Made by a program: the position numbers and the translations under genes
Part shown: piece by piece, positions 2,085 through 21,200 of the stretch
How the letters are laid out: each line of letters begins with the position of its first letter
Numbering within the stretch: position 1 is the stretch's first letter
Origin: a virus
DNA: 25,720 bases
Strand: one strand, 5' to 3'
IMG/VR virus record: IMGVR_UViG_3300030116_007454
Coordinates: 1-25,720 of that record
Notes under the pieces: generated by a model
Told to the model about the DNA's origin: nothing
Databases searched by the model: none
What the model saw: the letters and a program-made list of their open reading frames with translations, nothing else

Positions 2085-2483
2085 ATGAAAACTAGGATAT
2101 CTAGGTCATTTAAGGATATTAGCTTATCATTTAAACCTCATCCTGTAACGGGAGACCTTACAATTATCAAAAATGCGAATGCGATTAAGAGATCTGTAAG
2201 GAATTTAGTGGAAACTATTCCCAGAGAGAGGTTTTTTAACCCAAATCTTGGCACAGACATCCGTTCAAGTCTATTTGACTTCTGTGACTTCGGTACTGCA
2301 TCAGTGATTCAAAGACAAATCGTCACAACTATCGAAAACTTTGAACCTCGAATCGATAATTTGGATGTTGAAGTGATTCCTCGACCAGATGACAACGAAT
2401 TTGAAGTAAATATCTTTTTTGAGATTATTGGACAACAGTTTCCTCCACAAGCATTCCAGTTCATATTAGAAGCCACAAGATAA
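2085..2483 (+). CDS. 25: Baseplate wedge protein gp25 (lysozyme-like fold, gpW/gp25 family)
   Basis: This is the gp25 wedge component, which sits at the inner baseplate next to gp6 and gp53 and helps seed sheath assembly. At 132 residues it equals the length I recall for T4 gp25. Family features are visible: the start with SFKDISLSFKPHP, the AIKRSVRNLV helix, the RFFNPNLGTDIRSSLFD block and the family's EPR motif within NFEPRI near residue 87. The family belongs to the gpW/gp25 group with a lysozyme-like fold but is regarded as structural rather than enzymatic. It is the first gene after the tandem late promoters. gp6 follows one base after its stop. In T4 gene 25 is far from gene 6; here they are adjacent, as their counterparts W and J are in P2-like phages. 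Confidence 0.95.
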   Translation: MKTRISRSFKDISLSFKPHPVTGDLTIIKNANAIKRSVRNLVETIPRERFFNPNLGTDIRSSLFDFCDFGTASVIQRQIVTTIENFEPRIDNLDVEVIPRPDDNEFEVNIFFEIIGQQFPPQAFQFILEATR

Positions 2484-2484
2484 T

Positions 2485-4422
2485 ATGCCATTTACTAAAT
2501 TTACAAATCTAGATTTTGACCAAATCAAGACATCAATCAAAGATTACCTCCGTACAAACTCAGATTTTGACGCTTTTGATTTTGAGGGATCTAACTTTTC
2601 AGTTTTAATTGATACTTTAGCATATAATACGTATATCACTGCTTTTAACTCAAACATGGTTGTGAATGAGTCCTTCCTTGACTCTGCAACAGTTCGAGAG
2701 AACGTTGTCTCACTTGCTCGAAATATTGGATATGTTCCTCGATCTCGAAGTGCTGCACAAGCAACGATATCTTTTGATGTCACGTCAACTGACACTTCAG
2801 AGGTGTCTACAGCAACCTTAAAGGCAGGTCTAGTTTGTATTGGTAGTAGTAATGATATAACATATACTTTCTCAATTCCAGATGATATAACAACCACTGT
2901 TATACCTACATTTTTTCCTGTTCCAGAAGCTGGAGGTGTTAGAAGACTTAAAGGATATACAACATCTTTTGATTCAATTACAGTTTTTCAAGGAACACTC
3001 ATTAAAAAAAGGTTTGTAGTTGATGGATCACTCGATCAAAGGTTTATTTTAGATAATCCTTTCATAGATACATCTACAATTGTGATTTATGTAAAAGGTG
3101 CGAGTGATAAGGGTAGAGGAACACTTTATACAAAAGTTGATAATATATTAAATATAGATTCTACATCATCTACATACCTAATTCAAGAAGTTCAAGATGA
3201 AAAATACGAACTTTTATTTGGGGATGGTATTTTTGGAAGAAAACTTGATAATGAATCTATAATAGATGTTAGTTATATTGTAACTGACGGAAAAGATGGA
3301 AACGGACCTTCAACATTCTCATATGCAGGAAATATTGAAAATGATTCGGGGGAATCATCAACAATAATCACACCCACCATATCTGTGGTCTCTCCTGCAT
3401 CTAATGGCGGTAATATAGAGTCTATTGACTCAATTAAGTATTTTGCACCCCGACTCTATTCATCACAGTACAGGGCGGTTACAGCAAGGGATTACGAGGC
3501 AATAATTCAACAAATTTATCCTAATACTGAAAGTGTTTCTGTTGTTGGTGGAGAGGAAATTGATCCACCACAATTTGGAACAGTTTTTATTACGATAAAA
3601 CCTAAAAATGGTGACTTTGTGTCGGATTTTGATAAAACTCAAATATTATCAGATCTAAAAAATTACACATTGACAGGAATTACACAAAAAATAATTGATT
3701 TGAAAGTTCTTCATATTGAATTAGAATCATTTATATATTTCAATTCATCAAGAGTTGGAAATGTAAACTCTTTGAAGACAAATGTTCTTAATGGTTTGAC
3801 AACTTACTCTAAGTCAACTGATGTAAACAAATTTGGTGGCAGATTTAAGTATAGTAAAGTTTTAAGTGTTATTGACAATATCGAAGATTCAATTACATCT
3901 AATATTACTCGAATCAGAATTAGAAGAAACTTAAATGCTCTTATAAATCAATTTGCTCAATATGAACTTTGTTTTGGTAACCAATTTAATGTCAAGTCCG
4001 AAGGATTAAATATTAAGAGTACAGGATTTAAAATTTCTGGTGTAGCAGAAACAGTATTTTTAACAGATACGCCAAATAGTGATAAAATGACGGGAATAGT
4101 ATCAATTGTGAAAAAAGACATAGTTGATGGGAAAAAAGTTATTATTGTTGAAAATGCAGGAACTGTTGATTACTTAAAAGGAGAAATAAATTTAACCACA
4201 ATTAATATTACATCAACTGATAAACCAAATAACGTTATTGAGGTTCAAGCTTTCCCAGAATCAAATGATGTCATAGGTCTTGAGGACTTATATTTGAAAT
4301 TTAACATTGAAAGTAGTTCAATAAATATGGTTAAAGACACCATTTCATCTGGAGACCAAATATCTGGTGTTGGATTTAAAGTTACTTCAAGTTATACAAA
4401 CGGAGATTTAACACGAGGATAG
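2485..4422 (+). CDS. 6: Baseplate wedge protein gp6 (baseplate J-like)
   Basis: This is gp6, whose dimers join neighbouring wedges into the inner baseplate ring. At 645 residues it is close to T4 gp6 (about 660). The N-terminal part matches T4 gp6 as I recall it, with FDAFDFEGSNFSVLIDTLAY, then NESFLDSATVRENVV and a NIGYVPRSRSAAQ stretch (residues about 28-95). The middle contains the J-like region with YELLFGDGIFGRKLDNESI and YRAVTARDYEAIIQQIYPNT. The C-terminal third is less familiar and beta-rich. It sits between gp25 and the gp7-like gene with one-base gaps on both sides, so translation is probably coupled. No strong ribosome binding site precedes its ATG. Arginine codons shift from CGA/CGT near the 5' end to almost only AGA further on. 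Confidence 0.95.
   Translation: MPFTKFTNLDFDQIKTSIKDYLRTNSDFDAFDFEGSNFSVLIDTLAYNTYITAFNSNMVVNESFLDSATVRENVVSLARNIGYVPRSRSAAQATISFDVTSTDTSEVSTATLKAGLVCIGSSNDITYTFSIPDDITTTVIPTFFPVPEAGGVRRLKGYTTSFDSITVFQGTLIKKRFVVDGSLDQRFILDNPFIDTSTIVIYVKGASDKGRGTLYTKVDNILNIDSTSSTYLIQEVQDEKYELLFGDGIFGRKLDNESIIDVSYIVTDGKDGNGPSTFSYAGNIENDSGESSTIITPTISVVSPASNGGNIESIDSIKYFAPRLYSSQYRAVTARDYEAIIQQIYPNTESVSVVGGEEIDPPQFGTVFITIKPKNGDFVSDFDKTQILSDLKNYTLTGITQKIIDLKVLHIELESFIYFNSSRVGNVNSLKTNVLNGLTTYSKSTDVNKFGGRFKYSKVLSVIDNIEDSITSNITRIRIRRNLNALINQFAQYELCFGNQFNVKSEGLNIKSTGFKISGVAETVFLTDTPNSDKMTGIVSIVKKDIVDGKKVIIVENAGTVDYLKGEINLTTINITSTDKPNNVIEVQAFPESNDVIGLEDLYLKFNIESSSINMVKDTISSGDQISGVGFKVTSSYTNGDLTRG
4415..4419 (+). promoter_or_regulatory. 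Shine-Dalgarno-like site of the giant gp7-like gene
   Basis: GAGGA lies in the final codons of gp6, four bases before the ATG at 4424. The spacing is short but usable. It favours this start, which also begins immediately after the gp6 stop. Confidence 0.45.
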
Positions 4423-4423
4423 T

Positions 4424-7400
4424 ATGATAAGTACTGGTATTGATACAAGAATTAAGATTCAACAAATAATTGAAAATCAACTTCCTGAGTTTATTCTATC
4501 AGAAAGTTCAGGAACAGTTGATTTTTTAAAGCAATATTATACCTCTCAAGAATATACTGGAGGTCCGACTGATCTAGTAGATAATTTAGATCAATATTTA
4601 AAATTAGATAATTTAACACCAGAAACTTTAAAAGGTTCAGTTACACTTAACGTGGGTATTGCATCAACTGATAAAGTAATTACTGTTTCACCAAACACAA
4701 AAGGATTTCCAAAACAATACGGATTGTTAAAAATTGGTGGTGAAGTCATCACATACACTGGTATCACTACAAATACCTTTACTGGATGCAAGCGTGGATT
4801 TAGTGGGATTACCACATATAGAGACATTAATAATCCATCGGAGTTAGTATTTTCTACTTCAACAGCAGATGCTCATACTCAAGGATCAAAAGTTGAAAAT
4901 TTAAGTTCTTTGTTTCTAAAAGAGTTCTATAAAAAAATAAAAAACACCTTTACACCTGGTTTAGAAAATACAGATTTTGTCCCAAATTTAGATGTAAATA
5001 ATTTCATAAAAGAAGCAAGAACTTTTTATGAATCAAAAGGAACAGAGGAGTCTTTTAGAATTTTATTCAGAGCACTCTATGATGTTGATCCTAAGATAAT
5101 AGATTTAGAAGAATATTTAATAAAACCATCTTCTGCAAAATATGTAAGAAGAAAGAGAATAGTAGCAGAAAAAATAATAGGAGATCCTTTAAATTTAAAA
5201 GGTCAAACCATTGTTAGATCAACAGATTCATCCTCTACAGCATCTGTATCTGAAGTTGAAATATTAACAGGTATTTCTGGAATATCTACATCAAAAGATT
5301 ATTTTATTTTAGATCTTTTTGTTGGGTTTGATGAAGAGGAATTTATAACTGGAAATTTTGATGTTACTGGAAAAACTAAGGTTATCACTGATGTTTCGGA
5401 GAACTCTACAGTAATAACTGTAGATTCAACCATTGGTTTTGGAACCGCTGGAACAATTATTTCTGGTATAAACACAAATATATCTTATGACAATAAAACT
5501 ATCAATCAATTTTTAGGTTGCACGGGAATTAATCATCCAATTGCCTTAGGTGATGATATAATAGATGATGATAATATTTTTGGATATGAAAATGGAGATT
5601 TGACAAAAAAAGTAGAATTGAGAATAACAGGTGTACTAAGTGATTTTGTACCATCAGAAAATAATCGATTATCTTTAGAGGGTGAAACTATAAATGTTAA
5701 AAGTATTGGTGAAATAATTAATAATCCAAATACAAACAAATCTCAAAAAGAAATATTTGCAAATTCATGGATATACAATACATCTTCAAATTATGATGTT
5801 GTTGATGACTTTTCATCAGTTCCCCAAAGTGCAATAAAGTTAAAATCTAAGATAGATAAGTCTAGTTTAAAGGTTGGAGACTCTATTCAAGTTTTAGAAA
5901 AGAAAAGTAGTCCTTTTTCTTTAGGAAATGTTGTTAAAGAAACAACAATCATAAGCATAATTGAATCTTCAAATAAAATTATTATGAATTCTTCACATGA
6001 ATTCAGTTCTTCAAAAAATTATGAAATTAGAAGAGTTATAGAAAAAACTTCTAGTATTTCAAATTTATTGAAATATGGTAATAATACTCTTACTCCCAAT
6101 ATTCAAAATGTATATAACGAATCTGATGAAAATTTATATGTGGCAAGTAATTCTCTCCCATCATCAGAAACCATAGTAACTCTATCTCAAGCTACAATTT
6201 CTGGTGTTACAACTGCAGTCACAATTCAAGATTTTAATAGTTTAACAAGAAAATATTCAACAATTTCATTTCCTGATCCTAATATTCCGTTTGTAACAGG
6301 AGATCAGGTATTCTATGAACCAGAGGGATTACCTCTAGTTGGACTTACATCTGGTTTTTACTTTGTGAGAACTATAGGCAATAATAAAATTAAATTATAT
6401 AAGGCACCAGCTTTTATTGAGGTTAATGATTTTATTGAATTTGGTGTTCCTGCGATTACAAATACTAGTCATTCCTTCACTCTTGGTAATCAATATAACA
6501 AATTGATAGCACCTCAAAAATTACTTAAAAAATTTCCAATAAACGTTAATCAAAATACGGGTACAAATGTAGAGACAATTCCAGGACCAGTTGGAATGTT
6601 AATTGATGGAGTTGAAATTGAAAATGGAAAATCTACAGATAGTATTTTTTATGGATCAATTGAAAACTTTTCAGTAATCGGTTTTGGAACTAATTATGAT
6701 GTAATCAATCCACCTGATATTGAAATTGGATCTGTATCTTCAGCATCAACACAAGCATTGGTTAGTCCTGTAATAGATGGAGATATAAGAGAGATACAAG
6801 TTGATCCACAAAATTTTGATATAGAAGATGTGATTTCAATTCAATTAACTGGAGGTAATAGTGGGGAAGCAGTTCTTCAACCAGTTCTTCGTAGGAGAAA
6901 TAGGGAGTTAGAATTTAGTGGAGTTACAACTGCTTTTGGTGGAGGAATCGATACATTTTCAGAAACAATAACATTTACAAAACCACACAACTTAGTAAGT
7001 GGACAAATTTTAGTTTATGATAGAAATAAAAATACACAACTAGGGATAGGAACTTTTAAAGGTAGTAATTTGAGTGACTCTGAAAGTTTGATCGATGGAC
7101 AACAATATTGGCCAGAAGTTGTTGGATTATCAACAATTAGACTTTATAGAAATCAAACTGATTATCTAACTGGTATTAACACAATTGGATTTACAGAAAT
7201 TGCAAAAAATGGAATACATAAATTTAAATTAAAAGATGCTAAAAATAGTTTATCTAGTGTTAGGGTTATAAAATCAGGAAAACCATATCTAAGTAGAAAA
7301 ATATTTGTCAATTCATCTACTGGAATATCCACCCATAAATCTATAATTACGTTCCCAAATCATGGATTTTTAGATGGTGAATTGGTAGACTATCAACCCT

Positions 7401-10400
7401 CTGTCGGTTTAGGAACAACTTCTCCTCAAAGTATATTGGGATTATCAACTTCGGTTCAATATAATGTTATCAAAATTGATAATGATAATTTCAGAATATC
7501 TAACGCTGGTATTGGTGGCACAAATACAACTAATTTTATTAGAAAAAATCATGTAGAACTTAAAACTACTGGAACTGGATATCAATTATTTAAATATCCA
7601 GATGTTCAAATTTCTATCAACGCAATTTACTCTGTTCCAACTTCAGATAAAATTAATTTAACTCCAGTAATTCAAGGACAAATTGTAGGAGCATCTTTAT
7701 ATGAAAAGGGCAGTGGTTATGGAACAACTGATATCATTAACTATGAAAATAAACCAACTATAGTAATTAAAAATGGAATATCTAGACCAGGCAAAAATAT
7801 AACACCATCAATAGTTCCCATAATTTCAAATGGTCAAATATCAAATGTCAATATTCAAGATGGTGGATCTGAATATCATTCAACTCCAGATTTAGTTGTA
7901 GTTGGAGACGGAACTGGTGCTAGATTAAGGGCAGTTATTGATAGAGATGAAAATTCCTCTACTTTTTTAAAAATAGTTGACGTAATTATTTTAAGTTCAG
8001 GCACTAACTATACTTTTGATAAAACAAGGATTAATATAGTTCCTAGAGGGAAAAACGCAGTATTTTCTAGTTCAATTAAAAAGTTATCTATAAACAACAT
8101 TCAAAAAGAAAGTTCACAACCATATTTTAGAAAATATGAAAAACTTAGATTATTACCAAGTAATAATGAATTAAAATTTGTAACAGTAGGATACTCTACT
8201 GCGGATGGAATTACTAGATACGGTCAACAAGAGAATAGACACTCTCCAATTATTGGATGGGCATATGATGGGAATCCAATTTATGGACCATATGGTTATA
8301 GCGATGCATTTGATAATTCATCTACCATAAAAATACTAAAAACGGGATATTCTATAAAAACAAATATACCTGATAGAAATGATTTGCCTTTTGATCTTGG
8401 ATTTTTTGTTGAAGACTATTCATACTTACCTTCAAGTTCTACAGATTTAGATGAACATAATGGAAGATATTGTAGAACTCCAGAATATCCAAATGGAGTT
8501 TATGCATACTTTGCTGGTATTACTACAGATGGGCAAAATCCAGAGTATCCATATTTTATTGGTAATACTTATAGATCTATTCCAGAGGTTTTAGATCCTC
8601 TTTCAAAAATAGATCAATCATTTGATTTTAATAATTCAAAATTAGTTAGAAATACTTTTCCATATAAATTATCAGATCCATTTGCGAATAATGATTTTAT
8701 TGTTGAATCAAATGAAATATTACCACAAACTACTAGAGTTTTATCTGTATCTCAAGGTGGAGTTGATTCATTATCAATTTTAAAATCTGGAGAAGGATAT
8801 AAAGTAAATGATACTGTAGTATTTGATAATGCAGGTACGAAGGGTAGTGGTGTTAGTGCTTTTGTAAGTCAATTAGAAGGGAAACCGATATCTAGTATTG
8901 TGACAAATTATGATGCTTTGAACAATGTTACATTTATTAGAAAAAATGCGGACACGATTTCAGTATTTGTTCCAAACACTCATCAATTATCAGTTGGAAA
9001 TAATCTTGAATTATCTGGATTATCAACAGATATTAAATCAACAACAGGTATTCCTTTAATTGGTAATCATAACGTTTCTGCAATTTCAACTGAAAGCACT
9101 ATCTTATTTAAAGAACTACCTTTAAATACAACTGCAGGGATTGTGACTGATATATTTGTTTATGAAACAAATGTAATTTCAGTAGGAAGTAGTATTGGAA
9201 TTGGAACTGAAAAACTATTAGTTTTAAATAAATTTGATGATAAAAATATTTTAAGAGTTGAGAGAGGTGTTTCAGGAACAGCACATACACTTTCTACTGA
9301 AGTTAAATTAATTCCTAGTTTCTTTGATATATCTTTCAAATCAAATCCAATTGATTCAAGAGTAGATGATGTAGTATATTTTAATCCTAGACAATCTGTT
9401 GGCATCGCAACAACAGTAGGTATTACATCGGCAGTTAATGTATCCATTGGTGCGACTTCAAGTATAGTATCTGTTCCAGCACAAAGTATTTACTTACCAA
9501 ATCATCCATTTAAAACGGGACAACAAATTACTTTTAAAACAGATGGAAATAATGCAATTCAGGTATCAAAAGATGGATCAAGTGCGACTAGTCAGACTTT
9601 TACTATTCCAATCTCAGGAACAAGTCAAACTTTATTTGCAATAAACAAGTCTCCAAATTACATTGGAATAGTAACTCAAGTAGGTTTAATTACTTCTACT
9701 GATGGTTTATTTTTTAGAAGCAATGGTGATGATTATTTTAAATATAGATTTGAATCTAATTTTAATAAAGTTACTGGAAACGTAGAAAGAATAAATTCAA
9801 AAGTATCTTTAACAACATCACATAATTTATCCGTAGGAGATATAGTTAGTTTAAATATTACCTCTGATCAATCTGTTGGTATTGGAGCTTCCACTAAAGT
9901 TAAAGTTAAATATAATTCTTTAATTGATAGTTTATTAATAGATCAAGTAGGATTTACTTCAGCAAAAATTAATACAACTAATAACACAATAAACATAAAT
10001 TCTCATGGTTTTAAAACTGGAGACAAAGTTTACTATGATTCAACGGATACTATTGCTACTGGACTTGAAACTGGTGGATATTATGTTTACAGATTAGATG
10101 ATAATAATATAAAATTAGCAGAAACATTTTATGATGCAAAACAAATACCACCTACTATTGTAAGTATCGTATCAATTGGAGGATCTGAGCATCAATTGTC
10201 ATTAATTAACCCTCAGATAAATGTAACTAGAGATAACAATTTGGTATTTGATATATCAGATTCATCTTTAGATGGATTTAATTTTAAAATATATCAAGAT
10301 GAGAATTTTAATAATGATTTTGTTTCTACTGGAAAAACAACTGTAAATACAGTTTCCACCTCAGGGACAATAGGGGTTACTTCAACTGCGACTCTAACAC

Positions 10401-13400
10401 TAAATTATTCAATTAATAATCCTTCAAATTTATTTTATAATGTTGAAAAATCTAGATTTATCAGCACTTCAGATACAGATGTGATAAATGGGTCTAAAAT
10501 ATCTTATGTAGATAGTGATTATAATACAAATTACTCTGTTGTGAGTGTGGCATCAACTGATTTTGATATAAGACTTAAATCAAAACCAGAAACTTTATCA
10601 TATCAAGCATCAAATACAAATGTTTTAGAATATAAAACTACATCAAAAACAGATAGTGGTGCGATTAGTAAAGTTAATTTAACTTCTAAGGGAACTGGAT
10701 ATCAAGCTTCTCCTAGATTTGTTAGTGTTGCATCCACTCAAGGAATAAATGCTAAGTTATTGCCATCATCAACAACTAGTAATAAAATTGAAAATGTTGA
10801 GATATTAAATATTGGATTTGAATATGCATCAGATAAAACTTTAACTCCTATAGCAAATTTATCACCAGTAATTACAACAAAAGATTCAAATAAAATATCA
10901 TCAATAATTGTTAAAAAAGGAGGCACTAATTATACAACTCCACCAGAATTAGTTTTACAAGATGTTGAAACTAAACAGATTATAAAGAGTGGATCTCTAA
11001 TAGCAAATGTTGGACAAGCATCTCAATCAATTAACAGTGTTGAAATAATCAATACACCTCAAGGGATTGGTAATTGTGAATTGTTTACTAAAAATAATTC
11101 AAGTGGAATACCAATCACAAATATAGCAGTAGGATCTACGATTGTTACTGATAGTGTAAGTGGAATAGTCACTGTAACTTTAGCAACACCAATTTTAGGG
11201 TTTACTACTGCTCCTTTCCAAGCAGGAGATAGAATTTTTGTAGAAAATATAGAAAATGAGTATGGAGATACTTTTAATTCACCATCTAATAAATTTACTT
11301 TCTATCCAGTAGAAAGAATACTTGGTGGTGTAAACCCAAATCCATTTAGATTAGAAATAAATCTTAATGGATTAATATCAAATCCAGGATTAGCAAAAAC
11401 AATTCAAACTTTTGCATCAGCAATTAATTTTAAAGATTATCCTCAATTTACAATAGTTACAGAATTATCTAATTTTGTGGAAGGTGAAATACTTTTAGTA
11501 TCAAGAAATAATTCATCTTTTGATAATGTTGGACTTACCTTGGATAAGGTGAATAATAGTTATATTAAAGTTTTAGGTGATTTTAATTTAGAAGTAAATG
11601 ACAAAGTAAAAGGTCAATTTTCTGGAGCAATTGCTACTATTAACAGCATATTCGAAAATAAGGGTCAATTTAAAGTTAGTTTTGCTTCAGATAGAGTTGT
11701 TGGATGGTCTAATAACACTGGTAAGTTAAATCAAGATTATCAAGTAATACCTGATAATGATTATTATCAAACTCTATCATACACAATACAGAGTCCAATT
11801 GAGTATCAAACATTAGTAAGTCCTGTAAACAAATTATTACACACAACAGGTCTTAAGAATTTTGCAGACTTAGGTATATCAACATCTGTTGGAGTTGGTT
11901 CTACTACTAGTGTTGACTCTTCTACCATCATTAGAGATTTAACCTCTGAAAATAGAGTGGATGCGATTGATAATTTTGATTTAGCTAAAGATGTTGACGT
12001 ATTATCAAATCCACTTCGATCTAGATTTATTTCTTTTGATACAAAAGATCTTGCAAATTTCTTTGAGTGTTCAACAAATAGAGTTTTACAAATAGATAAC
12101 ATTAATACATTATTTAAAAACTCAACAAATAACGCACGAAGAGATGGATCAATAAATCTTACTAATTCATTTAACAGATTTTTAGTTCAAACGAGAGTTC
12201 CATCTGTTTCCACTGGAATTGGAACTACAACAAACACCATTCAGTTGACTGAACTTCTTACTTCTATAGATTTTGCAAATAACAACATATTTACAATTCA
12301 AAAAGGTTCTATAAATGATGAGGCAAAAATAGTTGATATTGTAGGAGAAGAAGGTGAAGATAATACTTTCAAATTAAACTTCAATCCTGTAGACCCCTTT
12401 AACAGTGATTTAGATGTTAAAATTTTACAACAATCATTTTTACCTGGTGTTGGTGCAGGACAAACTTCTATAGGATTTATAACTTTAAATGGAACAAATC
12501 AAAATGTTTCTGCATCTTCAACTTCTACGATAATATCCTCTAATATTTCTGATATAGATTCTTATTTTGCTACAGTTGAAATTAAAGATAGTAACACAAA
12601 TGAGAATAATATTGTTGAAATTTACGCTACTCATGATGGAACAAATTCATATATATCAAACTATTCTTTAGAAACTAACACTACTAATTCTATAGGAACT
12701 TTTACCACAAATTTAGATTCTAGTATTTTATCTTTAAAATTTGAAAATGATAGATCAAATAAAGTTTTTGTCAGATCAAGAGTTGTTGGATTTGGAACCA
12801 CAGGAGTTGGAATTGGAACATTTAGATTTAAAAATGATACACAATCAGCTGGGTCTGAAAATTCTGCAAGATTTGAATCAAATTTTGTTAGCATTGCTGC
12901 AACATCAGTTATTGCAGGATTTACAACTGCAAGAGATACTTCTGTTAAGAGTATAGTTAGAGTATCAATAGGAAAAACAAGTGCTTTACATCAAATTCTT
13001 TTGAGTCATGATGGAGAAAATACTTTTATTTCACAATATCCATTTATAACAATAGGAGATGATTTGGGTATAGGAACATTTTCTTCAGAGTATAATGGTT
13101 CTAATTTAAATTTAAAATTTCATCCAGATCCCAATTTTATTGGTGTGGGCGATTTAGTTGTACAATCTTTTAGTGAAATTATAAACACTAAATTAGATGA
13201 GATTAATTTAACACCAAATTTAAATTATGGTAAAAGTTTTGAAACATTATCCCTGTTGCAATATGATGCAATAAATTCTGTGAGATCTGATGGGTTAGAA
13301 TTTACACTAACAAATAACAATAATCCAATATTTGCTAATTTCTTTAATCCTACAAATAATTTAAATTTGGTGACAGGAGAATTTACAATTGAAAATAATT

Positions 13401-16400
13401 TCTTCAATCGAAATGAAAGATTAATTTACACACCTGGTACTTCAAATGTTGGATTCTCATCTTTAATAATGTCTGACGGTAATCCTTTACCAAGTGAGGT
13501 CTATGTTGTTCTTCCTTCTGGTACTGTAAACTCAAAAGTATTTAAATTATCAACATCAAGAGCAGGATCTGCAGTAACATTTAATACAGTTGGTTCTGGT
13601 GATAGACATAAATTAGAGATGTTTAAGAAAAATGAAAAATCTTTAATTGCTCTTGACGATGTAATTCAATCTCCAATATCATTTACTCCTATTACAACTA
13701 CATTAGCAGGAAATGTTGGTGGACAAGTTTCAATATCAACTTCAATTTTATCTCTATCAGGAATTTCAACAATAATTCTTGGTGATATTTTAAAAATAGA
13801 CAACGAATTTGTAAAAGTAAATAACGTAGGTTTTGGAACCACAAACCTTGGTCCTATTTCAAATACAGGTTCTTTGAATTTAGTTGATGTAACTAGAGGA
13901 GTTGTTGGATCATCTTCATCAATCCATACTGACTCTAGTACAGTGAGATTATTTAAGGGTGGATACAACATAGTCGGTGAAAAAATATTCTTCTCAGATC
14001 CACCTAGAGGAACTAATATCTTAGAAAAAGATGAATCAAATAGAGATCGTGGTAGATCTAATTTTAGTGGAAGAGTTTTCTTAAGACAAGATTATTCATC
14101 AAATGCAATTTTTGATGATGTTTCAACTGAGTTTACTGGTATAGGAAAAACATTTACTACAACAATATCTGGAATTAATACTACAGGAATTACAACAGGA
14201 AGTGCTTTTGTAACTATTAATGGAATATTTCAACCACCAACAACAGAAAAAAATCCCACAAACAATTATGAATTTTCAGAATCTGCTGGAATTACAAGTT
14301 TTGTATTTAGTGGTATAACTTCATTTAATGGAACTCAGATTATCAGTGAAGCAGATGTAAATCAAAATCAATTACCAAGAGCAGGGCAAATTGTATCAAT
14401 CGGATTTAGTGGTGGATTGGGAATCGCACCTTTGGCAGGAGCATCAGTCACAGCTGTTCTTGGTGCAGGTGGATCAATTACATCAGTGGGAGTTGGAACA
14501 AGAGACTTCCATGGATCTGGATATCGTTCAGGTTTAAGCACCACAGGAGATGGAATTATTCATATTGGTATTGCTGATACTGTTGGAACTGGTGCCACAG
14601 TTACTGCAACAGTTGGTATAGGTGGAACATTAATATTCAGTGTTGTTGGTGGTGGAAGTGGATATGTGAATCCTAGAGTAGAAGCACCTGTTCCTAGATA
14701 TGAGAATTTACCAGTAACAGGTGTATCCAGAATAGGTGTTGGTGCTACAACAGATACTGGAATTGGACTTCTTTTAAATGTTGACGTTGGTGGAAGTAAT
14801 ACCACTGGTATAGGATCCACTCTTTTTGAAGTTAAATCTTTTGAAATAACAAGACCTGGTTTTAGTTTTAAAAAAGGTGATGTATTTAAACCAGTAGGAT
14901 TGGTTACTGACAAAACACTTTCATCGCCAATAACTGAACCTCTATTTACAGTAAATGAGGTATTTACTGATTCCTTCTGTTCTTGGAATGTTGGTGAATT
15001 TGATTACATTGACACAATAAGACCATTACAAGATGGAATTAGAAAAAGATTCCCACTTAATTTTAAAGGTGAGTTAGTATCTTTCCAAAGTGCTAAATCA
15101 TCTCAAATTGATATGCAATCATTATTATTAATATTCATTAATGGAGTTATACAAATTCCTGGTGAATCTTACATATTCAACGGTGGAACATCATTTGAAT
15201 TTACAGAGGCACCTGATGTAAATGATAAGGTATCAGTATTTTTCTATAAAGGAACAAATGATGAAGATGTCACATTTACAGATGTCACAGAAACTATTAA
15301 AGTTGGTGATGAGGTTCAATTACTTAAAAATAATAATGATAGTGGCAGTGATCAACAAACTAGAGTTGTATCTGGAATTTCAACATCAGATTTAATTGAA
15401 ACTCCTGTATATTTTGATGAGGGTATTGATATTATTGATTTTGGTACGGGAAGACAAAGAACACCTTTAAAATCACTAAGATGGATAAAACAAAAAGCAG
15501 ATAAATTCATAAATGGTGAGTTAGTTACTAAAATCAGACCTTCGATTGAACCACTTGTATTTCCAGAAGCTAGAATAATTAAAGATCTTGGATCTGGAGA
15601 TAGTACAATTTATATTGATAATGTGGGTGTTGGTACAAACTCTTTAACTAATTTGTTCTTCTATGAAAATCCAACTAATATTGGAGCATTAGTATTTGAT
15701 GAATCCGTAGAAACAAAAACAGCAGATTTAACTGCAGTTGTTTCTGCTGGTGGAACAATTCAATCTATTACAATTAACGATGGAGGAAAAGGATATGTGG
15801 GTTCTAGCACTGCACTATCAATCGCTTCTCCAACATCACACACTGGAGTTGCTTTGACAGCAAGTGATTTGTTAGTTGTTAATGGTGGTTTAGGAATAGG
15901 ATCTACTACCTTTGCCACAGCAAATGCCAACATTACAAGTGGTATTATAACTTCAATATCAATTGTGAATGGTGGTGTGGGATATACAACAACCGCAGTT
16001 CCAAACGTAATTGCACCAACTCCTGTTAAACCATCAGAAGTAATTACTGGATTTACTGGGGCAAGTGGATTTTCAGGTATAGTTACATCAATAAGTGTTT
16101 TAAGTAGTTCTACTATAAAATTCTTCTTAGAAAAAGAATCGGGAACATTCAGTGGAATTGGAAATGGAGATCCAATTTACATATTTGATACTGCAGTTGG
16201 TTCAGGTGTTACTTCAGTAGTAACCTCCTCAGGATCTCCTGTGGGAATTGGTACTTCATTCTTTGACAACATATATCTAATCAGCTCTTACAGCACAACA
16301 TCCAATACCGCTGAATTTGTTGCTGGAGTCAAAACTGATACGTCTTTGGTTGGTATTTCAACTAGCGGTATATCTGGTAAGTTCTCTTGGGGTAAACTTA

Positions 16401-16549
16401 CTGGTGGTGTTAGATCGTCTACAAATCCAATTTCAGTTACGATTTCTGGTAAAACAGTCAACTCTGGTTTAACTACTTTTCCAAGAATACAAAGGAGAAA
16501 TTCTGGTATTAGAAACACTGGTGCTTTAATAGATAAATCCCGTGCTTAA
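4424..16549 (+). CDS. 7: Giant gp7-like baseplate wedge protein, 4041 aa, with YHYH domain and beta modules
   Basis: This protein of roughly 430-440 kDa is the probable gp7 of the wedge (T4 gp7 is about 1032 aa). Residues 1-290 carry the homology. ENQLPEFILSE is followed by a FLKEFYKKI helix and then FYESKGTEESFRILFRALYD (201-220), which closely parallels a segment in the C-terminal third of T4 gp7 as I recall it; later GQTIVRSTDSSST also parallels it. The rest is beta-rich. HGF-x-TGD-x-V-type modules lie near residues 614-676, 974-1029 and 1856-1906. A YHYH-type domain spans about 1242-1386. Glycine-tyrosine modules recur from 1086 to about 3870, and tandem HDG modules lie at 2693-2919. NGIFQPP and NGVIQIPG modules lie near 3264 and 3571. 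A distinctive end runs from GKFSWGKLTGG (about 3985) to the IQRR and TGAL motifs. It has no signal peptide or stop interruption. Arms or fibre-like projections are inferred. Confidence 0.85.
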   Translation: MISTGIDTRIKIQQIIENQLPEFILSESSGTVDFLKQYYTSQEYTGGPTDLVDNLDQYLKLDNLTPETLKGSVTLNVGIASTDKVITVSPNTKGFPKQYGLLKIGGEVITYTGITTNTFTGCKRGFSGITTYRDINNPSELVFSTSTADAHTQGSKVENLSSLFLKEFYKKIKNTFTPGLENTDFVPNLDVNNFIKEARTFYESKGTEESFRILFRALYDVDPKIIDLEEYLIKPSSAKYVRRKRIVAEKIIGDPLNLKGQTIVRSTDSSSTASVSEVEILTGISGISTSKDYFILDLFVGFDEEEFITGNFDVTGKTKVITDVSENSTVITVDSTIGFGTAGTIISGINTNISYDNKTINQFLGCTGINHPIALGDDIIDDDNIFGYENGDLTKKVELRITGVLSDFVPSENNRLSLEGETINVKSIGEIINNPNTNKSQKEIFANSWIYNTSSNYDVVDDFSSVPQSAIKLKSKIDKSSLKVGDSIQVLEKKSSPFSLGNVVKETTIISIIESSNKIIMNSSHEFSSSKNYEIRRVIEKTSSISNLLKYGNNTLTPNIQNVYNESDENLYVASNSLPSSETIVTLSQATISGVTTAVTIQDFNSLTRKYSTISFPDPNIPFVTGDQVFYEPEGLPLVGLTSGFYFVRTIGNNKIKLYKAPAFIEVNDFIEFGVPAITNTSHSFTLGNQYNKLIAPQKLLKKFPINVNQNTGTNVETIPGPVGMLIDGVEIENGKSTDSIFYGSIENFSVIGFGTNYDVINPPDIEIGSVSSASTQALVSPVIDGDIREIQVDPQNFDIEDVISIQLTGGNSGEAVLQPVLRRRNRELEFSGVTTAFGGGIDTFSETITFTKPHNLVSGQILVYDRNKNTQLGIGTFKGSNLSDSESLIDGQQYWPEVVGLSTIRLYRNQTDYLTGINTIGFTEIAKNGIHKFKLKDAKNSLSSVRVIKSGKPYLSRKIFVNSSTGISTHKSIITFPNHGFLDGELVDYQPSVGLGTTSPQSILGLSTSVQYNVIKIDNDNFRISNAGIGGTNTTNFIRKNHVELKTTGTGYQLFKYPDVQISINAIYSVPTSDKINLTPVIQGQIVGASLYEKGSGYGTTDIINYENKPTIVIKNGISRPGKNITPSIVPIISNGQISNVNIQDGGSEYHSTPDLVVVGDGTGARLRAVIDRDENSSTFLKIVDVIILSSGTNYTFDKTRINIVPRGKNAVFSSSIKKLSINNIQKESSQPYFRKYEKLRLLPSNNELKFVTVGYSTADGITRYGQQENRHSPIIGWAYDGNPIYGPYGYSDAFDNSSTIKILKTGYSIKTNIPDRNDLPFDLGFFVEDYSYLPSSSTDLDEHNGRYCRTPEYPNGVYAYFAGITTDGQNPEYPYFIGNTYRSIPEVLDPLSKIDQSFDFNNSKLVRNTFPYKLSDPFANNDFIVESNEILPQTTRVLSVSQGGVDSLSILKSGEGYKVNDTVVFDNAGTKGSGVSAFVSQLEGKPISSIVTNYDALNNVTFIRKNADTISVFVPNTHQLSVGNNLELSGLSTDIKSTTGIPLIGNHNVSAISTESTILFKELPLNTTAGIVTDIFVYETNVISVGSSIGIGTEKLLVLNKFDDKNILRVERGVSGTAHTLSTEVKLIPSFFDISFKSNPIDSRVDDVVYFNPRQSVGIATTVGITSAVNVSIGATSSIVSVPAQSIYLPNHPFKTGQQITFKTDGNNAIQVSKDGSSATSQTFTIPISGTSQTLFAINKSPNYIGIVTQVGLITSTDGLFFRSNGDDYFKYRFESNFNKVTGNVERINSKVSLTTSHNLSVGDIVSLNITSDQSVGIGASTKVKVKYNSLIDSLLIDQVGFTSAKINTTNNTININSHGFKTGDKVYYDSTDTIATGLETGGYYVYRLDDNNIKLAETFYDAKQIPPTIVSIVSIGGSEHQLSLINPQINVTRDNNLVFDISDSSLDGFNFKIYQDENFNNDFVSTGKTTVNTVSTSGTIGVTSTATLTLNYSINNPSNLFYNVEKSRFISTSDTDVINGSKISYVDSDYNTNYSVVSVASTDFDIRLKSKPETLSYQASNTNVLEYKTTSKTDSGAISKVNLTSKGTGYQASPRFVSVASTQGINAKLLPSSTTSNKIENVEILNIGFEYASDKTLTPIANLSPVITTKDSNKISSIIVKKGGTNYTTPPELVLQDVETKQIIKSGSLIANVGQASQSINSVEIINTPQGIGNCELFTKNNSSGIPITNIAVGSTIVTDSVSGIVTVTLATPILGFTTAPFQAGDRIFVENIENEYGDTFNSPSNKFTFYPVERILGGVNPNPFRLEINLNGLISNPGLAKTIQTFASAINFKDYPQFTIVTELSNFVEGEILLVSRNNSSFDNVGLTLDKVNNSYIKVLGDFNLEVNDKVKGQFSGAIATINSIFENKGQFKVSFASDRVVGWSNNTGKLNQDYQVIPDNDYYQTLSYTIQSPIEYQTLVSPVNKLLHTTGLKNFADLGISTSVGVGSTTSVDSSTIIRDLTSENRVDAIDNFDLAKDVDVLSNPLRSRFISFDTKDLANFFECSTNRVLQIDNINTLFKNSTNNARRDGSINLTNSFNRFLVQTRVPSVSTGIGTTTNTIQLTELLTSIDFANNNIFTIQKGSINDEAKIVDIVGEEGEDNTFKLNFNPVDPFNSDLDVKILQQSFLPGVGAGQTSIGFITLNGTNQNVSASSTSTIISSNISDIDSYFATVEIKDSNTNENNIVEIYATHDGTNSYISNYSLETNTTNSIGTFTTNLDSSILSLKFENDRSNKVFVRSRVVGFGTTGVGIGTFRFKNDTQSAGSENSARFESNFVSIAATSVIAGFTTARDTSVKSIVRVSIGKTSALHQILLSHDGENTFISQYPFITIGDDLGIGTFSSEYNGSNLNLKFHPDPNFIGVGDLVVQSFSEIINTKLDEINLTPNLNYGKSFETLSLLQYDAINSVRSDGLEFTLTNNNNPIFANFFNPTNNLNLVTGEFTIENNFFNRNERLIYTPGTSNVGFSSLIMSDGNPLPSEVYVVLPSGTVNSKVFKLSTSRAGSAVTFNTVGSGDRHKLEMFKKNEKSLIALDDVIQSPISFTPITTTLAGNVGGQVSISTSILSLSGISTIILGDILKIDNEFVKVNNVGFGTTNLGPISNTGSLNLVDVTRGVVGSSSSIHTDSSTVRLFKGGYNIVGEKIFFSDPPRGTNILEKDESNRDRGRSNFSGRVFLRQDYSSNAIFDDVSTEFTGIGKTFTTTISGINTTGITTGSAFVTINGIFQPPTTEKNPTNNYEFSESAGITSFVFSGITSFNGTQIISEADVNQNQLPRAGQIVSIGFSGGLGIAPLAGASVTAVLGAGGSITSVGVGTRDFHGSGYRSGLSTTGDGIIHIGIADTVGTGATVTATVGIGGTLIFSVVGGGSGYVNPRVEAPVPRYENLPVTGVSRIGVGATTDTGIGLLLNVDVGGSNTTGIGSTLFEVKSFEITRPGFSFKKGDVFKPVGLVTDKTLSSPITEPLFTVNEVFTDSFCSWNVGEFDYIDTIRPLQDGIRKRFPLNFKGELVSFQSAKSSQIDMQSLLLIFINGVIQIPGESYIFNGGTSFEFTEAPDVNDKVSVFFYKGTNDEDVTFTDVTETIKVGDEVQLLKNNNDSGSDQQTRVVSGISTSDLIETPVYFDEGIDIIDFGTGRQRTPLKSLRWIKQKADKFINGELVTKIRPSIEPLVFPEARIIKDLGSGDSTIYIDNVGVGTNSLTNLFFYENPTNIGALVFDESVETKTADLTAVVSAGGTIQSITINDGGKGYVGSSTALSIASPTSHTGVALTASDLLVVNGGLGIGSTTFATANANITSGIITSISIVNGGVGYTTTAVPNVIAPTPVKPSEVITGFTGASGFSGIVTSISVLSSSTIKFFLEKESGTFSGIGNGDPIYIFDTAVGSGVTSVVTSSGSPVGIGTSFFDNIYLISSYSTTSNTAEFVAGVKTDTSLVGISTSGISGKFSWGKLTGGVRSSTNPISVTISGKTVNSGLTTFPRIQRRNSGIRNTGALIDKSRA
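5024..5083 (+). other. gp7 signature segment within the giant protein
   Basis: Residues 201-220 read FYESKGTEESFRILFRALYD. T4 gp7, as I recall it, has an almost collinear segment with FY-KG-E-S-LF-LY residues in its C-terminal third. This short block is the main sequence evidence that the giant protein is gp7 rather than an unrelated fibre. Confidence 0.7.
7681..8050 (+). repeat. Glycine-tyrosine beta modules, block 1 (three units)
   Basis: Three consecutive protein-level units read KGSGYGTTDIINYENKPTIV, DGGSEYHSTPDLVVVGDGTG and SSGTNYTFDKTRINIVPRG. Each has a G-x-x-Y turn, a proline or strand and then V/I-rich strands. They resemble repeats in beta-helical or beta-solenoid tail proteins, which is inference. 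The DNA is diverged, so this is a protein repeat. Confidence 0.6.
8150..8581 (+). other. YHYH-type domain embedded in the giant gp7-like protein
   Basis: Residues about 1242-1386 carry the hallmarks of the YHYH domain (Pfam family named for its motif). They are IIGWAYDGNPIYGPYGYSD, then DLDEHNGRYCRTPEYPNG followed by VYAYFAG, and finally YPYFIGNTYRS. The position expected to read YHYH reads YAYF, so the histidine is replaced. Such domains are known from bacterial secreted proteins and, from memory, from giant cyanophage structural proteins. The function is unknown. Confidence 0.8.
8741..8905 (+). repeat. Glycine-tyrosine beta module, single unit
   Basis: One unit directly after the YHYH region reads LSILKSGEGYKVNDTVVFDN and continues into a GTKGSGVSAFVSQ strand. 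It has the same SGxGY turn as the other blocks. Confidence 0.5.
10660..10975 (+). repeat. Glycine-tyrosine beta modules, block 2 (three units)
   Basis: The units are LTSKGTGYQASPRFVSVAS, then LNIGFEYASDKTLTPIANLS, then VKKGGTNYTTPPELVLQDV. They repeat the turn-tyrosine-proline-strand plan of block 1, about 3 kb further on. Confidence 0.6.
12505..13180 (+). repeat. Tandem HDG beta modules (two units of about 120 residues)
   Basis: Unit 1 has VEIKDSNTNENNIVEIYATHDGTNSYISNY-type features centred on HDG at about 12632. Unit 2 repeats them with HQILLSHDGENTFISQYPF centred at about 13007. Both continue with an IGTF turn and then L-LKF (LSLKF, LNLKF) before a valine-rich strand. The period is about 374 bases. 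Only protein-level similarity remains, so the duplication is old. Confidence 0.65.
14450..14710 (+). repeat. Glycine-tyrosine beta modules, block 3 (two units)
   Basis: GGSITSVGVGTRDFHGSGYR and GGTLIFSVVGGGSGYVNPRV bracket a GATVTATVGIG strand. This is the classic pattern of a G-S-G-Y turn followed by alternating V/T strands. Confidence 0.6.
15739..16040 (+). repeat. Glycine-tyrosine beta modules, block 4 (two units)
   Basis: GGTIQSITINDGGKGYVGSS and ITSISIVNGGVGYTTTAVPN are the clearest copies. Each has an I-T-S-I strand, then N-G/D-G-G, then G-Y. They lie about 180 residues before the C-terminus of the giant protein. Confidence 0.65.
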
Positions 16550-16603: not shown

Positions 16604-18259
16604 ATGTCGGCAATTGTAACAGATCAGTTTAGAATCAATAACGCAGGGAATTTTTTAGGCGATGTAAATAATTCTTCAAATTCATATTATGTTTTTGTTG
16701 GATTATCAAACCCATCTGCTGCAGTTAGATCGGATAAAGCTTTTGGTAGAAATGCAACTGATGCACAGTGGAATGATCAAATAACTAGAAAAGTTCCTGT
16801 TGATAATTCAAATTATTTAACACATTCCAAAGACACAATGGTTTTTGGTAAAAAAATTACCCCAGATAATGTAAGAAGAGTTGTTAGAAAAATAACTTGG
16901 ACAAAAGATACAATCTATGATATGTATCGTCATGATTATAGTGCATCTAATCGAACCCCAAATGGTCAAACAGCAAGATTGTATGATACTGATTTTTATG
17001 TGATTAATAAAGATTTTAATGTTTACATATGTGTTGACAATGGTTCGAGTGGAATTAACACTACGGGTAATCCATCTTTAAATGAACCAACATTAACAGG
17101 ATTAGAACCATTTAGAGCCACTGGTGCTACTGATGATGGATATCTTTGGAAATACTTATTTACAGTGCCTCCAAGTGATATTATAAAATTTGATGCTACA
17201 GAATTTATTCCATTACCTAATGATTGGTCAACGTCAACAGATGCCAACGTTGCAAATGTTAGAGACAATGGAAATGCTGATATTAGCAATAATCAAATAA
17301 AAAAAATATTCATCGAAAATAGTGGCACTAATTATAAAAATGCTGGTGCTGGAGGTTTAGAGGTAAGTATTAGAGGTGATGGTAGTGGTGGAAAGGCAAT
17401 CGTTGAAGTTGGTAATGATGCAAAAATTAGTGATGTAAAAGTATCTGTGGGTGGAAAAGGATATACTTATGGTCTAGTTGATCTAACAGATATTCAACCA
17501 GACAGTCCTAATGCTAAGTTAGTTCCAATAATCCCACCATCAAAAGGTCATGGTTTTGATATTTACAAAGAACTTGGTGCAGATAGAGTTTTGGTTTATG
17601 CTAGATTTGATGATTCTACCAAAGATTTCCCGATTGACACTAAATTTGCTCAAATTGGAATTGTTAAAAATCCAACTTCAATTGGGTCTACACAAATTTT
17701 TAATCAATCTCAATTTTCCTCAGTATCCTCTTTATATTTGAAGTCTTTTGATAGTCCTAGTCCAGCAAAAGTGGGTGATTTAATTACACAAAATATTAAG
17801 AATGAGGGTGGAACTGTAATTGGTCAAGCAAGAGGTTATGTTGTTTCTTTTGATATTATATCAACTGATGTTAGCAATAAAATCGCAGTCTTAAAATATT
17901 ATCAAGACAGATCACTATATTTTAATCCAACCACTGGAGATCAAACAGACATAGTTGGTTTAGGCACAACTTCCATATCTGGCACAAATGGACAGATATA
18001 TAAATTTGGTGGAAGCGAAACCATTAATGGAACTGACGGAACTTCAGATTATGATGTTACAATAGAAACTACTTTTAGTGGTATTTCAACAAATCCCACA
18101 GGAACCAAAATAATCGATTTGGGAGTTGATTTTAAAAATGGCGTAGCACAATCCGAGATAAATAATCAGTCGGGTGATATTATCTACCTAGATAATAGAC
18201 AGTTGATCACTAGAGATAGTAGGCAAAAAGAAGACATTAAAGTTATACTGGAATTCTAA
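16604..18259 (+). CDS. 8: Baseplate wedge protein gp8, enlarged by inserted modules
   Basis: This is gp8, which binds gp7 and gp10 in the wedge. Both ends parallel T4 gp8 as I recall it. The start has AIVTDQFRINNAGNF and then YYVFVGLSNPS. The middle has DDGYLWKYLFTVPPSDIIKF followed by FIPLPNDW (residues about 176-206). LVYARFDDSTKDFPIDTKF and IGIVKNP come near 328-358. The end is GDIIYLDNRQLITRDSRQKE followed by DIKVILEF. At 551 residues it is much longer than T4 gp8 (334). The extra length includes a glycine-tyrosine module at about residues 234-300 and an expanded segment between about 360 and 525 with GIGT/GIST-type loops. A late promoter precedes it, and no clear ribosome binding site is seen. 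The second giant starts three bases after its stop. Confidence 0.9.
   Translation: MSAIVTDQFRINNAGNFLGDVNNSSNSYYVFVGLSNPSAAVRSDKAFGRNATDAQWNDQITRKVPVDNSNYLTHSKDTMVFGKKITPDNVRRVVRKITWTKDTIYDMYRHDYSASNRTPNGQTARLYDTDFYVINKDFNVYICVDNGSSGINTTGNPSLNEPTLTGLEPFRATGATDDGYLWKYLFTVPPSDIIKFDATEFIPLPNDWSTSTDANVANVRDNGNADISNNQIKKIFIENSGTNYKNAGAGGLEVSIRGDGSGGKAIVEVGNDAKISDVKVSVGGKGYTYGLVDLTDIQPDSPNAKLVPIIPPSKGHGFDIYKELGADRVLVYARFDDSTKDFPIDTKFAQIGIVKNPTSIGSTQIFNQSQFSSVSSLYLKSFDSPSPAKVGDLITQNIKNEGGTVIGQARGYVVSFDIISTDVSNKIAVLKYYQDRSLYFNPTTGDQTDIVGLGTTSISGTNGQIYKFGGSETINGTDGTSDYDVTIETTFSGISTNPTGTKIIDLGVDFKNGVAQSEINNQSGDIIYLDNRQLITRDSRQKEDIKVILEF
17305..17500 (+). repeat. Glycine-tyrosine beta modules inserted in gp8
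   Basis: IFIENSGTNYKNAGAGGLEV and VKVSVGGKGYTYGLVDLTD bracket GDGSGGKAIVEVG. These are the same modules as in the giant gp7-like protein. They fall in a place where T4 gp8, as I recall it, has only a short connector. Confidence 0.6.
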
Positions 18260-18262
18260 ACC

Positions 18263-21200
18263 ATGTCACAAAAAACAAATTTAAACATAAGTCCTTATTA
18301 TGACGATTTTAATGATGTCAATAATTTCTATAGAGTTCTGTTTAGACCAGGAAGACCTGTTCAGGCTCGCGAATTAACAACTTTACAATCAATATTACAA
18401 AACCAAATAGAATCTTTTGGAAATCATATATTCAAAGAAGGATCAATGGTTCTTCCTGGTGGTGTTAGTTATGATGATACATACTTTTCAATAAGATTAG
18501 AATCAGAGCATTTAGGTCTTCCAATATCTCTTTATCTTAATAATATAAAAGGAAAAAAATTAAAAGGTCAAAATTCTGGAATTGAATTTTTGGTTAATGA
18601 TTGCAAACTACCAAGTGAATCGAGTGAGATTACAGATATTACAATTTTTGTAAAATATTTAACGGGAAATAACGATAATTTAAACGCTAATTTAGAGGAT
18701 GGTGAACCATTACTTACTTTAGAAGATATTACTTATGGAAACACCACTATAGTATCTGGTGAAAGTGTTGCTACATTAGTGCCTACAAACGCCTCTGCGA
18801 TTGGTAGTGCGGTTAAAATGAATGAAGGTGTATATTTTGTTAGAGGAACCTTTGTAACCGTTCCTACAAGCACTATAGTTTTAGATCCATATTCAAATGA
18901 TCCATCATATCGAGTAGGATTAAATATTACAGAGTCAATAATTACATCAAAAGAAAACTCTTCATTATATGATAATGCTAAAGGATTTTCTAATTTTGCA
19001 GCACCTGGTGCAGATAGGTTAAAGATAACAGCAACTCTTGCAAAAAAAAGTTTAACTGATACTAGTGACGTTAATTTTATTGAAATAGTTAAATTAAGAG
19101 AGGGTGAACTTAAAAAATTACAAGATTCTTCTGTCTATAATCAATTAGAAAAATATTTGGCTGCTAGAACATTTGAAGAATCAGGAAATTATTCGATAGA
19201 TAATTTTAATGTTAATATTGCAGAATCTTTAGATAATGGACTTTCTAATGGAGGAATATTTGAATCAAATCAAGTAACTGAACAAGGTAATACCCCTTCT
19301 GATGATCTAGCTTGTCTTAAAGTAAGTGCTGGAACAGCGTATGTTCAGGGTTACAGAATTGAAGAACCAGGAACATCAATTATAGATTTTGATAAACCAA
19401 GAGATAAAGAAAAAGTAAATACTGCTTTAGTTCCATTTGATATGGGAACTTTAATACGTGTTAATAATGTGTCTGGAACACCTGTTTTGGGTATTGCAAT
19501 TCATGGAATTCAACAAAATACAGTTTCTCTTTTTAGTAGAAGAAAAGATTTGACAAATGCATCTAGTAAACCAGCTGGTGCTTTTGAAATAGGGAAAGCA
19601 AGGGTATATTCATTTGGATTACGAAATACTCCATATCAAGGCAATGCTAGTGAGTGGAATCTTCACTTATTTGATGTTCAAACATATACAGTTTTGACTA
19701 TAAACACTGGATTAGACGCAACAAAGAGTTCATTTATTAGAGGTGCCAGTAGTGGTGCCACGGGATTTGTGAATGAGGCAGTATCAGGTGCAACTGAAAT
19801 TGTTTTATCTCAAACATCAGGATCTTTTATTACTGGTGAAAAATTAATTATTAATGAATCTGAAGAAGAATTTAGATCTGTTGTATCAATTAGAAAGTAT
19901 AATTTTCAAGATATAAAATCAGTTTTTCAAGATACTGACGGTATTGACGGTGGTATACCATCATTTACTGAATTTAGTGCAGACACAGTACTAGAGACTA
20001 CTAGAATACCTTCAGTGACATCTTTTAACAACAGTGTAATTTCAGGGACTAACGGTCTTACAGGGACAATAACATCACCTGGTAATTCTCTCTCTGGAAT
20101 AAAAACAGATTCTATCATTCAATATCAAGAAGCAGGAACTTCTGATATTAATTTTAATAGAGTCACTGCTGTTAGTGCTAATTCATTAACTGTTGTTGGA
20201 GTTGCAACTGTCAGTGGAGTAAACGATGGTAAAGTTGGTATTAACACAATTTCTTCAATATCTTTAGCGTCTCCAGTTGTTGTAGATAAAGAAAATACAG
20301 GATTATATGCAAAATTAGGATTTGATAACATATGTGAAGTAGATTTGGCAAATTCAACTTTAGCAGTATCTTCTCAATCAGGATTGATTACCCTTTCAGA
20401 TTATTCAACAACGCAACCAATTTCTAATATTGCAGGTATAACAAGTGCATTTTTCAGTAATTTTGACACTCAAAAATATTCTATAGCTTACACTAACGGA
20501 ACCATAGAACCTTTGACAAGAGATCAATTTAAATTAGTTGACTCTGGATCAAAAGTTCAATTTAGTGGATTGAGTACAAACACAGGCAGTGCTGTATTAA
20601 ATGTTACTGTAGAGAAACAAGGCATTAAAAATAAAACTAAACAATTCACAAGAAGTAATAAAATAATTATTGATAAAACAAAAGTTGGTGTGACCACTAG
20701 TACAAATGGTTTAACATTTAATAGGTATTATGGACTTAGAATAGAAGATAGGGAAATATCTTTGAATGCTCCAGACGTAGTAAATGTAGTATCTGTTTTA
20801 GAATCCAATGATGCTAATGATCCCACTCTAGACAAAATAACCACCGTATCTGGACTTAATTTAAATATTAACACCATTGATGGTGAAAAAATAGTAGGTT
20901 CAGAAAGTGGAGCAGTAGCACAATTAGTTACTAGAGTAGATGGTGACAACGTTGAAGTTGCTTATTTTACGAGTGCACAATTTACTGTAGGTGAAAATAT
21001 AAGATTTGAGGAATCAAATATTCAGACAACAATTCAAGGAATTACTCTAGGAAATAATTCAAACATAACTGAAAAGTATTCTTTAGATAAGGGTCAAAGA
21101 GAACAATATTATGATTATTCAAGAATAGTTCGAAACCCAGTTATTTCTGCACCATCAAGAAGACTTTTAATAATTTTTAATTCTTATGTTGTTCCAACTA

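Follow-up and report, generated by a model that had tools for sequence, protein, structure and literature searches.

What is encoded by the giant gene that stands where T4-like phages carry gene 7, and which part of its product is gp7? The question is raised by DNA of 25,720 nucleotides (hereafter the window), a part of the 27,028-base virus record IMGVR_UViG_3300030116_007454, in which a single intact open reading frame (ORF) occupies positions 4424-16549 of the + strand, with 4,041 codons open throughout. A sequence-only reading of this locus had placed a gp7 wedge core in the first ~290 residues of the protein and described everything after it as a beta-rich extension of ~3,750 residues.

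Gene position and family

The gene order in the window is gp25, gp6, giant ORF, gp8, DUF4815 protein; the slot of the giant ORF, between gp25/gp6 and gp8, is the position of T4 gene 7:

2085..2483, + strand, gp25 (PF04965, E 1.6e-13)
2485..4422, + strand, gp6 (PF21379, E 5.6e-17; PHROG 219)
4424..16549, + strand, giant gp7 orthologue, 4,041 aa (intact ORF; PHROG 2885 baseplate wedge subunit, E 0)
16604..18259, + strand, gp8 (PF09215, E 3e-9; PHROG 438)
18263..25474, + strand, DUF4815 protein ('VrlC' in relatives), 2,403 aa, a separate gene (PF16075, E 2.3e-56)

The PHROG 2885 profile covers residues 2-3371 of the giant protein (E 0), and the first 300 residues were matched by 462 phage records, cyanophages nearly throughout. 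As the homologues in P-SSM2 (5,195 aa) and P-HM2 (4,454 aa) already carry the annotation 'gp7', the gene family is present in databases and is not new. The source phage is a marine T4 relative of the Kyanoviridae type. An assembly chimera was ruled out, since collinear proteins exist in many relatives, isolates among them.

Upstream of these genes, positions 1309-1977 of the window encode a 222-aa protein with a match to PHROG 3704 'ferredoxin' (E 2e-111) and no Pfam match; comparable 'ferredoxin' genes lie directly upstream of gp25 in S-CAM1 and S-SKS1.

Identity of the giant protein

The protein had been described as about four times as long as T4 gp7; the measured ratio is 3.9 (4,041 versus 1,032 aa). 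The KGT motif, FYESKGTEESFRILFRALYD, occupies residues 201-220, and its proposed alignment to the C-terminal third of T4 gp7 was borne out: BLAST aligned T4 positions 728-758 with 13/31 identities (E 5e-4), the strongest similarity falling at residues 198-226 of the giant protein. Family-to-family comparison of the N-terminal region with T4 gp7 by HHalign gave 93.6% (P 2.1e-7); as controls, the T4 profile in reverse gave P 0.15, and 40 column-shuffled versions of it reached P 0.044 at best.

Structure prediction pointed in the same direction. An AlphaFold model of residues 1-480 (pLDDT 74.3, pTM 0.39) was compared by Foldseek with 350,542 PDB chains; the top match, and the sole one with E < 1e-3, was chain BJ of 5iv5, an entry that contains T4 gp7. 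This chain (1,004 residues) is taken to be gp7, judged by its length. The global TM score between the model and T4 gp7 was low; thus, the similarity is local. Helices are predicted in the N-terminal model, and the helical hairpin at the N-terminus matched T4 647-758 in HHalign jointly with the KGT segment (P 1.9e-4); the hairpin alone gave a weak, non-significant match to T4 641-690. PF21428 (Gp7_helical, T4 643-689) matched in 0/5 cyanophage genomes, and a phmmer search of the whole protein against PDB returned chance FimG matches only. P2 gpI may resemble the gp7 core as well.

The N-terminal part of T4 gp7 had been thought absent or moved. No significant match to its ~640 residues was found in a scan of the giant protein by overlapping chunks. 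When the complete P-SSM2 genome was searched with the T4 gp7 family, the giant gene was the only match, confined to profile positions 719-788, so that no second gp7 was found there beside it. The N-terminal ~640 residues of T4 gp7 are peripheral and are likewise missing in minimal homologues such as the 242-aa XM1 gp17 (PMC10457771).

The published view is different: pelagi- and cyanomyophages have been stated to lack T4 gp7 and to use VrlC in its stead (PMC7029224), which would make the giant protein an unrelated structural protein. The shortness of the plain similarity to T4 gp7 speaks for this view; against it, the giant protein matches gp7 by profile and by fold, and these same genomes encode VrlC (DUF4815) separately, two genes further downstream. 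We regard substitution by VrlC as extremely improbable, and the giant protein as almost certainly gp7.

The pelagiphage HTVC008M led to the same result. The gp7 profile matches gp055 of this phage (E 5e-23), which is labelled 'head closure Hc2' and contains all three core pieces described below; VrlC of this phage is a separate gene two places past gp055. We conclude that gp7 is present in both the cyanophage and the pelagiphage groups. Cyanophages and SAR11 phages count among the most abundant viruses of the sea; a split, collinear gp7 core in the expected gene closes the gp7 gap reported for both groups.

As to annotation, I899_gp055 (NC_020484.1, 33435-36485) is a gp7 homologue despite its 'head closure Hc2' label; I899_gp059 of the same phage is annotated as 'baseplate wedge initiator', yet the gp7 profile has no match there.

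Three-piece core and inserts

The gp7 core was found in three pieces: a helical hairpin (residues 6-64), a KGT segment (159-238) and a 'SYxI...W...HPaGF' segment (2446-2495). Together with the inserted and appended parts they are arranged as follows:

4439..4615, + strand, core piece 1, N-terminal helical hairpin, residues 6-64 (own-family HMM; helices in model)
4616..4897, + strand, insertion i within the core, residues 65-158 (beta strands in model; family C module 69-131)
4898..5137, + strand, core piece 2, KGT segment, residues 159-238 (T4 gp7 731-758; motif 201-220)
5138..11758, + strand, insertion ii, residues 239-2445, ~2,200 residues of repeat modules and a YHYH domain (bounds from core HMMs)
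11759..11908, + strand, core piece 3, SYxI...HPaGF, residues 2446-2495 (T4 gp7 862-903; PF23786 231-282 in relatives)
11909..16546, + strand, C-terminal extension, residues 2496-4041 (core HMMs; no counterpart in S-CREM2)

Core piece 3, probably a beta-alpha-beta fold, is homologous to a landmark that reads SYxI...W...HPAGF in HTVC008M, S-CAM1 and P-HM2 and resembles T4 gp7 at 858-895. A profile of residues 2350-2569 matched T4 gp7 at 816-903 (P 5.2e-4; controls 0.054 or worse). Once the core pieces were spliced, the HHalign match to the T4 core rose to 97.2% (P 3.6e-11); with the order of the pieces swapped, it fell apart into two. When the protein was scanned without bias in 66 overlapping chunks, the four top matches lay in order at T4 733-758 (twice), 779-790 and 866-905. 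Divergence of the subfamily to which the window belongs makes the last two of them weak (P 0.013 and 0.029); the HPaGF segment of the window reads HTTGLKNF and reaches P 0.029 when distant relatives are left out. The weak match to T4 779-790 (P 0.013) lies at residues 241-380, and the first ~75 residues of insertion ii may correspond to T4 domain V.

A core profile built free of T4 sequences (S-SM1 was omitted, as its large insert disrupted the alignment, and its pieces were located separately) was searched against the whole PDB; only two sequences, both gp7 of T4 type, fell below E 0.02, with E values of 1.6e-7 and 2.4e-7 and two collinear matches each.

PF23786 (Baseplate_wedge), a contiguous Pfam model of 284 positions independent of this analysis, matched as three collinear pieces in HTVC008M and S-SM1, core piece 1 being matched at 4-53 in S-SM1 and at 8-41 in HTVC008M, and in HTVC008M the break falls exactly at model position 230/231. 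Single pieces score below the Pfam cut-off of 27 bits, as does the spliced core of the window (14.2 bits), while HTVC008M gp055 as a whole reaches 48.9 bits.

These data bear on the initial picture of a core confined to the first ~290 residues and followed by a single unbroken arm of ~3,750 residues at the C-terminus. That the strongest similarity to T4 lies at 198-226 would fit such a picture; the second collinear gp7 piece at 2446-2495, the split of PF23786 at 230/231 in HTVC008M and the S-CREM2 protein (1,937 aa), which stops 10 residues past core piece 3, all argue against it, and we consider it very unlikely. The core resumes far downstream, and residues 65-158, counted earlier as gp7-like, are a beta module inside it. 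Of the supposed extension, ~1,550 residues are truly C-terminal, while the other ~2,200 are internal, with core on both sides. The gp7 core is thus very probably split.

Homology, gene position and fold match show that hairpin, KGT and HPaGF pieces together make up a conserved core. In all eleven phages compared this core stays constant, and the variation lies in the inserts, at three fixed sites. The lengths of insertion ii and of the part that follows the HPaGF piece (KGT-to-HPaGF distance / remainder, in residues) were:

T4: 106/137
HTVC008M: 535/195
S-CREM2: 1,649/10
S-CAM1: 1,805/945
S-SRM01: 2,156/1,451
the window: 2,207/1,546
ACG-2014f: 2,170/1,765
S-CAM7: 2,166/1,861
P-HM2: 2,364/1,786
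P-SSM2: 2,240/2,661
S-SM1: 2,724/2,681

At the third insertion site, which interrupts the helical part, the window has 94 residues and S-SM1 has 598. The fixed sites at which the giant inserts grow can now be named, giving exact segments for structure work.

Compared with T4 gp7, the window protein shares the gene order 6-7-8, the KGT motif and the HPxGF segment; it differs in its roughly fourfold length, in the size of insertion ii and in lacking the N-terminal ~640 residues, and T4 gp7 for its part has no YHYH domain. Cyanophage gp7 (PHROG 2885; PSSM2_111 of P-SSM2, and P-HM2) agrees with the window protein in family, gene position, core pieces, YHYH and modules, and differs in the lengths of insert and tail, the C-terminal part of P-SSM2 having 2,661 residues versus 1,546. 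HTVC008M gp055 (1,016 aa) has the three collinear core pieces and lies between gp6 and gp8, as in the window, but its inserts are short and without YHYH. S-CREM2 ORF 122 has the core pieces and YHYH of the window protein without the C-terminal extension. No description of this split architecture was found in the open literature searched; the architecture is apparently undescribed in those papers, while the family itself is known.

Profile self-comparison of the giant protein gave several families of repeat modules: A (residues 611-701, 841-947, 960-1057, 1840-1941 and 2973-3062), B (744-823, 1083-1207, 2077-2181 and 3776-3866), C (69-131 and 314-371; P 7.7e-10 between copies) and an unlettered pair (2695-2778 and 2822-2904). 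Modules 2695-2778, 2822-2904, 2973-3062 and 3776-3866 belong to the C-terminal extension; those of insertion ii are encoded at

5363..5536, + strand, second copy of family C, residues 314-371 (profile self-comparison)
6254..7594, + strand, A modules 611-701, 841-947 and 960-1057 with B 744-823 (P 8e-18 to 3e-7)
7670..8044, + strand, family B copy, residues 1083-1207 (profile self-comparison)
9941..10246, + strand, family A copy, residues 1840-1941 (profile self-comparison)
10652..10966, + strand, family B copy, residues 2077-2181 (profile self-comparison)

The ORF contains one minor array of DNA tandem repeats only, so the protein repeats have diverged. The label 'beta modules' holds where the protein was modelled, with beta structure at 72-159 and 242-405; elsewhere a beta content is suggested by the repetition of modules. 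In P-SSM2 gp7 we noted by eye extra tandem repeats at residues ~3400-4300 ('...FTCxxDxxxxxHxYPRxTDP...'); the window has a short stretch there.

The YHYH domain and the proposed role of the inserts

The sole named domain within the inserts is YHYH:

8225..8518, + strand, YHYH domain, residues 1268-1365 (PF14240, E 8.1e-25)

It scores 88.3 bits against a cut-off of 25 and covers profile positions 88-181 of 193 only. YHYH occurs also in the giant gp7 of P-SSM2, P-HM2, S-CAM1, S-CAM7, S-SM1 and S-CREM2; it was not found in the HTVC008M and T4 proteins. A model of the YHYH region (pLDDT 62.7) had no PDB match and was set aside.

In a published survey YHYH was predicted to be a tail-associated metal-dependent hydrolase whose histidine triad is accompanied by an aspartate (PMC7824862). 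One could therefore suppose that the protein is gp7 and that its inserts are mainly enzymatic, the hydrolase opening the host envelope; indeed, H1273 and D1282 are kept in the window and in all 173 distinct phage-type sequences aligned. We compared the histidines of 227 phage-type copies with those of 18 stand-alone bacterial proteins, a small set collected by similarity to the phage copy. The YHxH upstream of the HSPxxGxxxDG stretch was present in 18/18 bacterial proteins and in 0/227 phage copies, the window included, and another histidine conserved in the bacterial set is likewise lost. The exchange is directly visible in the motif, GEYHYHDNP in bacteria versus GEYGYLYNP in P-HM2 relatives.

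Judged from these alignments, the phage domain appears to conserve the scaffold and not the proposed metal site. As histidines of that site are missing, the most likely role of YHYH is that of a module for binding or for structure; we take the phage domain to be probably non-catalytic and a mainly enzymatic role of the inserts to be unlikely. The published enzymatic role of YHYH in these proteins is thereby put in question.

Two further YHYH matches were seen in a second protein of S-SM1 (1,387-aa open frame; NC_015282.1, 77114-77824), which sits just downstream of a gp9-like gene. Long phage-type YHYH ORFs also occur on contigs assigned to metagenome bins of bacteria and archaea; these look like misbinned contigs of T4-like phages.

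The reading that we consider likely overall is that of a gp7 orthologue with a three-piece core and inserts at three fixed sites. In T4 and other contractile tails the wedge consists of (gp6)2-gp7 and gp25 (PMC10457771). The three core pieces would come together and attach to the gp6 dimer and gp25, as gp7 of T4 does. The repeat-built inserts leave the core within the helical part, between KGT and HPaGF, and at the C-terminus. As the middle insert begins and ends at the core, it would make a loop or arm held at either end, with the C-terminal ~1,550 residues as a second, free arm.

In XM1 gp17, the gp7 homologue of a Vibrio phage, the tail spikes are held by two parts, an internal loop (80-106) and the C-terminal end of the chain (201-242) (PMC10457771); gp17 is a minimal protein, and the spikes are separate proteins. 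Insertion i and the C-terminal extension are placed comparably by described position, and by this analogy the inserts should be directed outwards, at places where spikes are fastened in other phages. In S-CREM2 virions, mass spectrometry identified the orthologue by 91 unique peptides covering 27.2% of it (PMC10665884); as that protein is homologous to the giant gp7 (E 1.4e-59), this relative is a component of the virus particle. No structure of a baseplate of this kind came to light. An arm or skirt at the outer baseplate, as first proposed, seems to us rather probable; copies around the baseplate would make its outer part and contact the host or bear fibres.

The inserts would stand in for the N-terminal half of T4 gp7 and for gp9/gp10, so that one protein probably takes over much of the outer baseplate for which T4 needs several. 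The N-terminal family of T4 gp9/gp10 is absent in 4/5 cyanophage genomes and weakly present in S-SM1; its absence fits, without proving, a replacement of the T4 periphery. Replacement of gp9 is not obligatory, since S-SM1, whose insert is the largest among the ten genes of cyano- and pelagiphages that were measured, still has a gp9-like gene. The full proposal, that one split gp7 with a giant loop and a free tail replaces the N-terminal half of T4 gp7, gp9 and gp10 while a retired YHYH binds the host, is put forward tentatively.

Two further relatives may be mentioned. In S-SKS1 (NC_020851.1, 15992-28387) the giant gp7 region falls into four overlapping stop-to-stop frames (710, 1,601, 1,113 and 739 aa), the first ~7 kb having no annotated CDS; the broken frames reflect either sequencing errors or a really split gene. 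The longest giant gp7 seen here lies in a 7,352-aa open frame of NZ_RMVE01000006.1, a contig of 188,235 bases from the assembly of a bacterial isolate (Nonlabens xiamenensis); this contig may be a whole T4-like phage genome.
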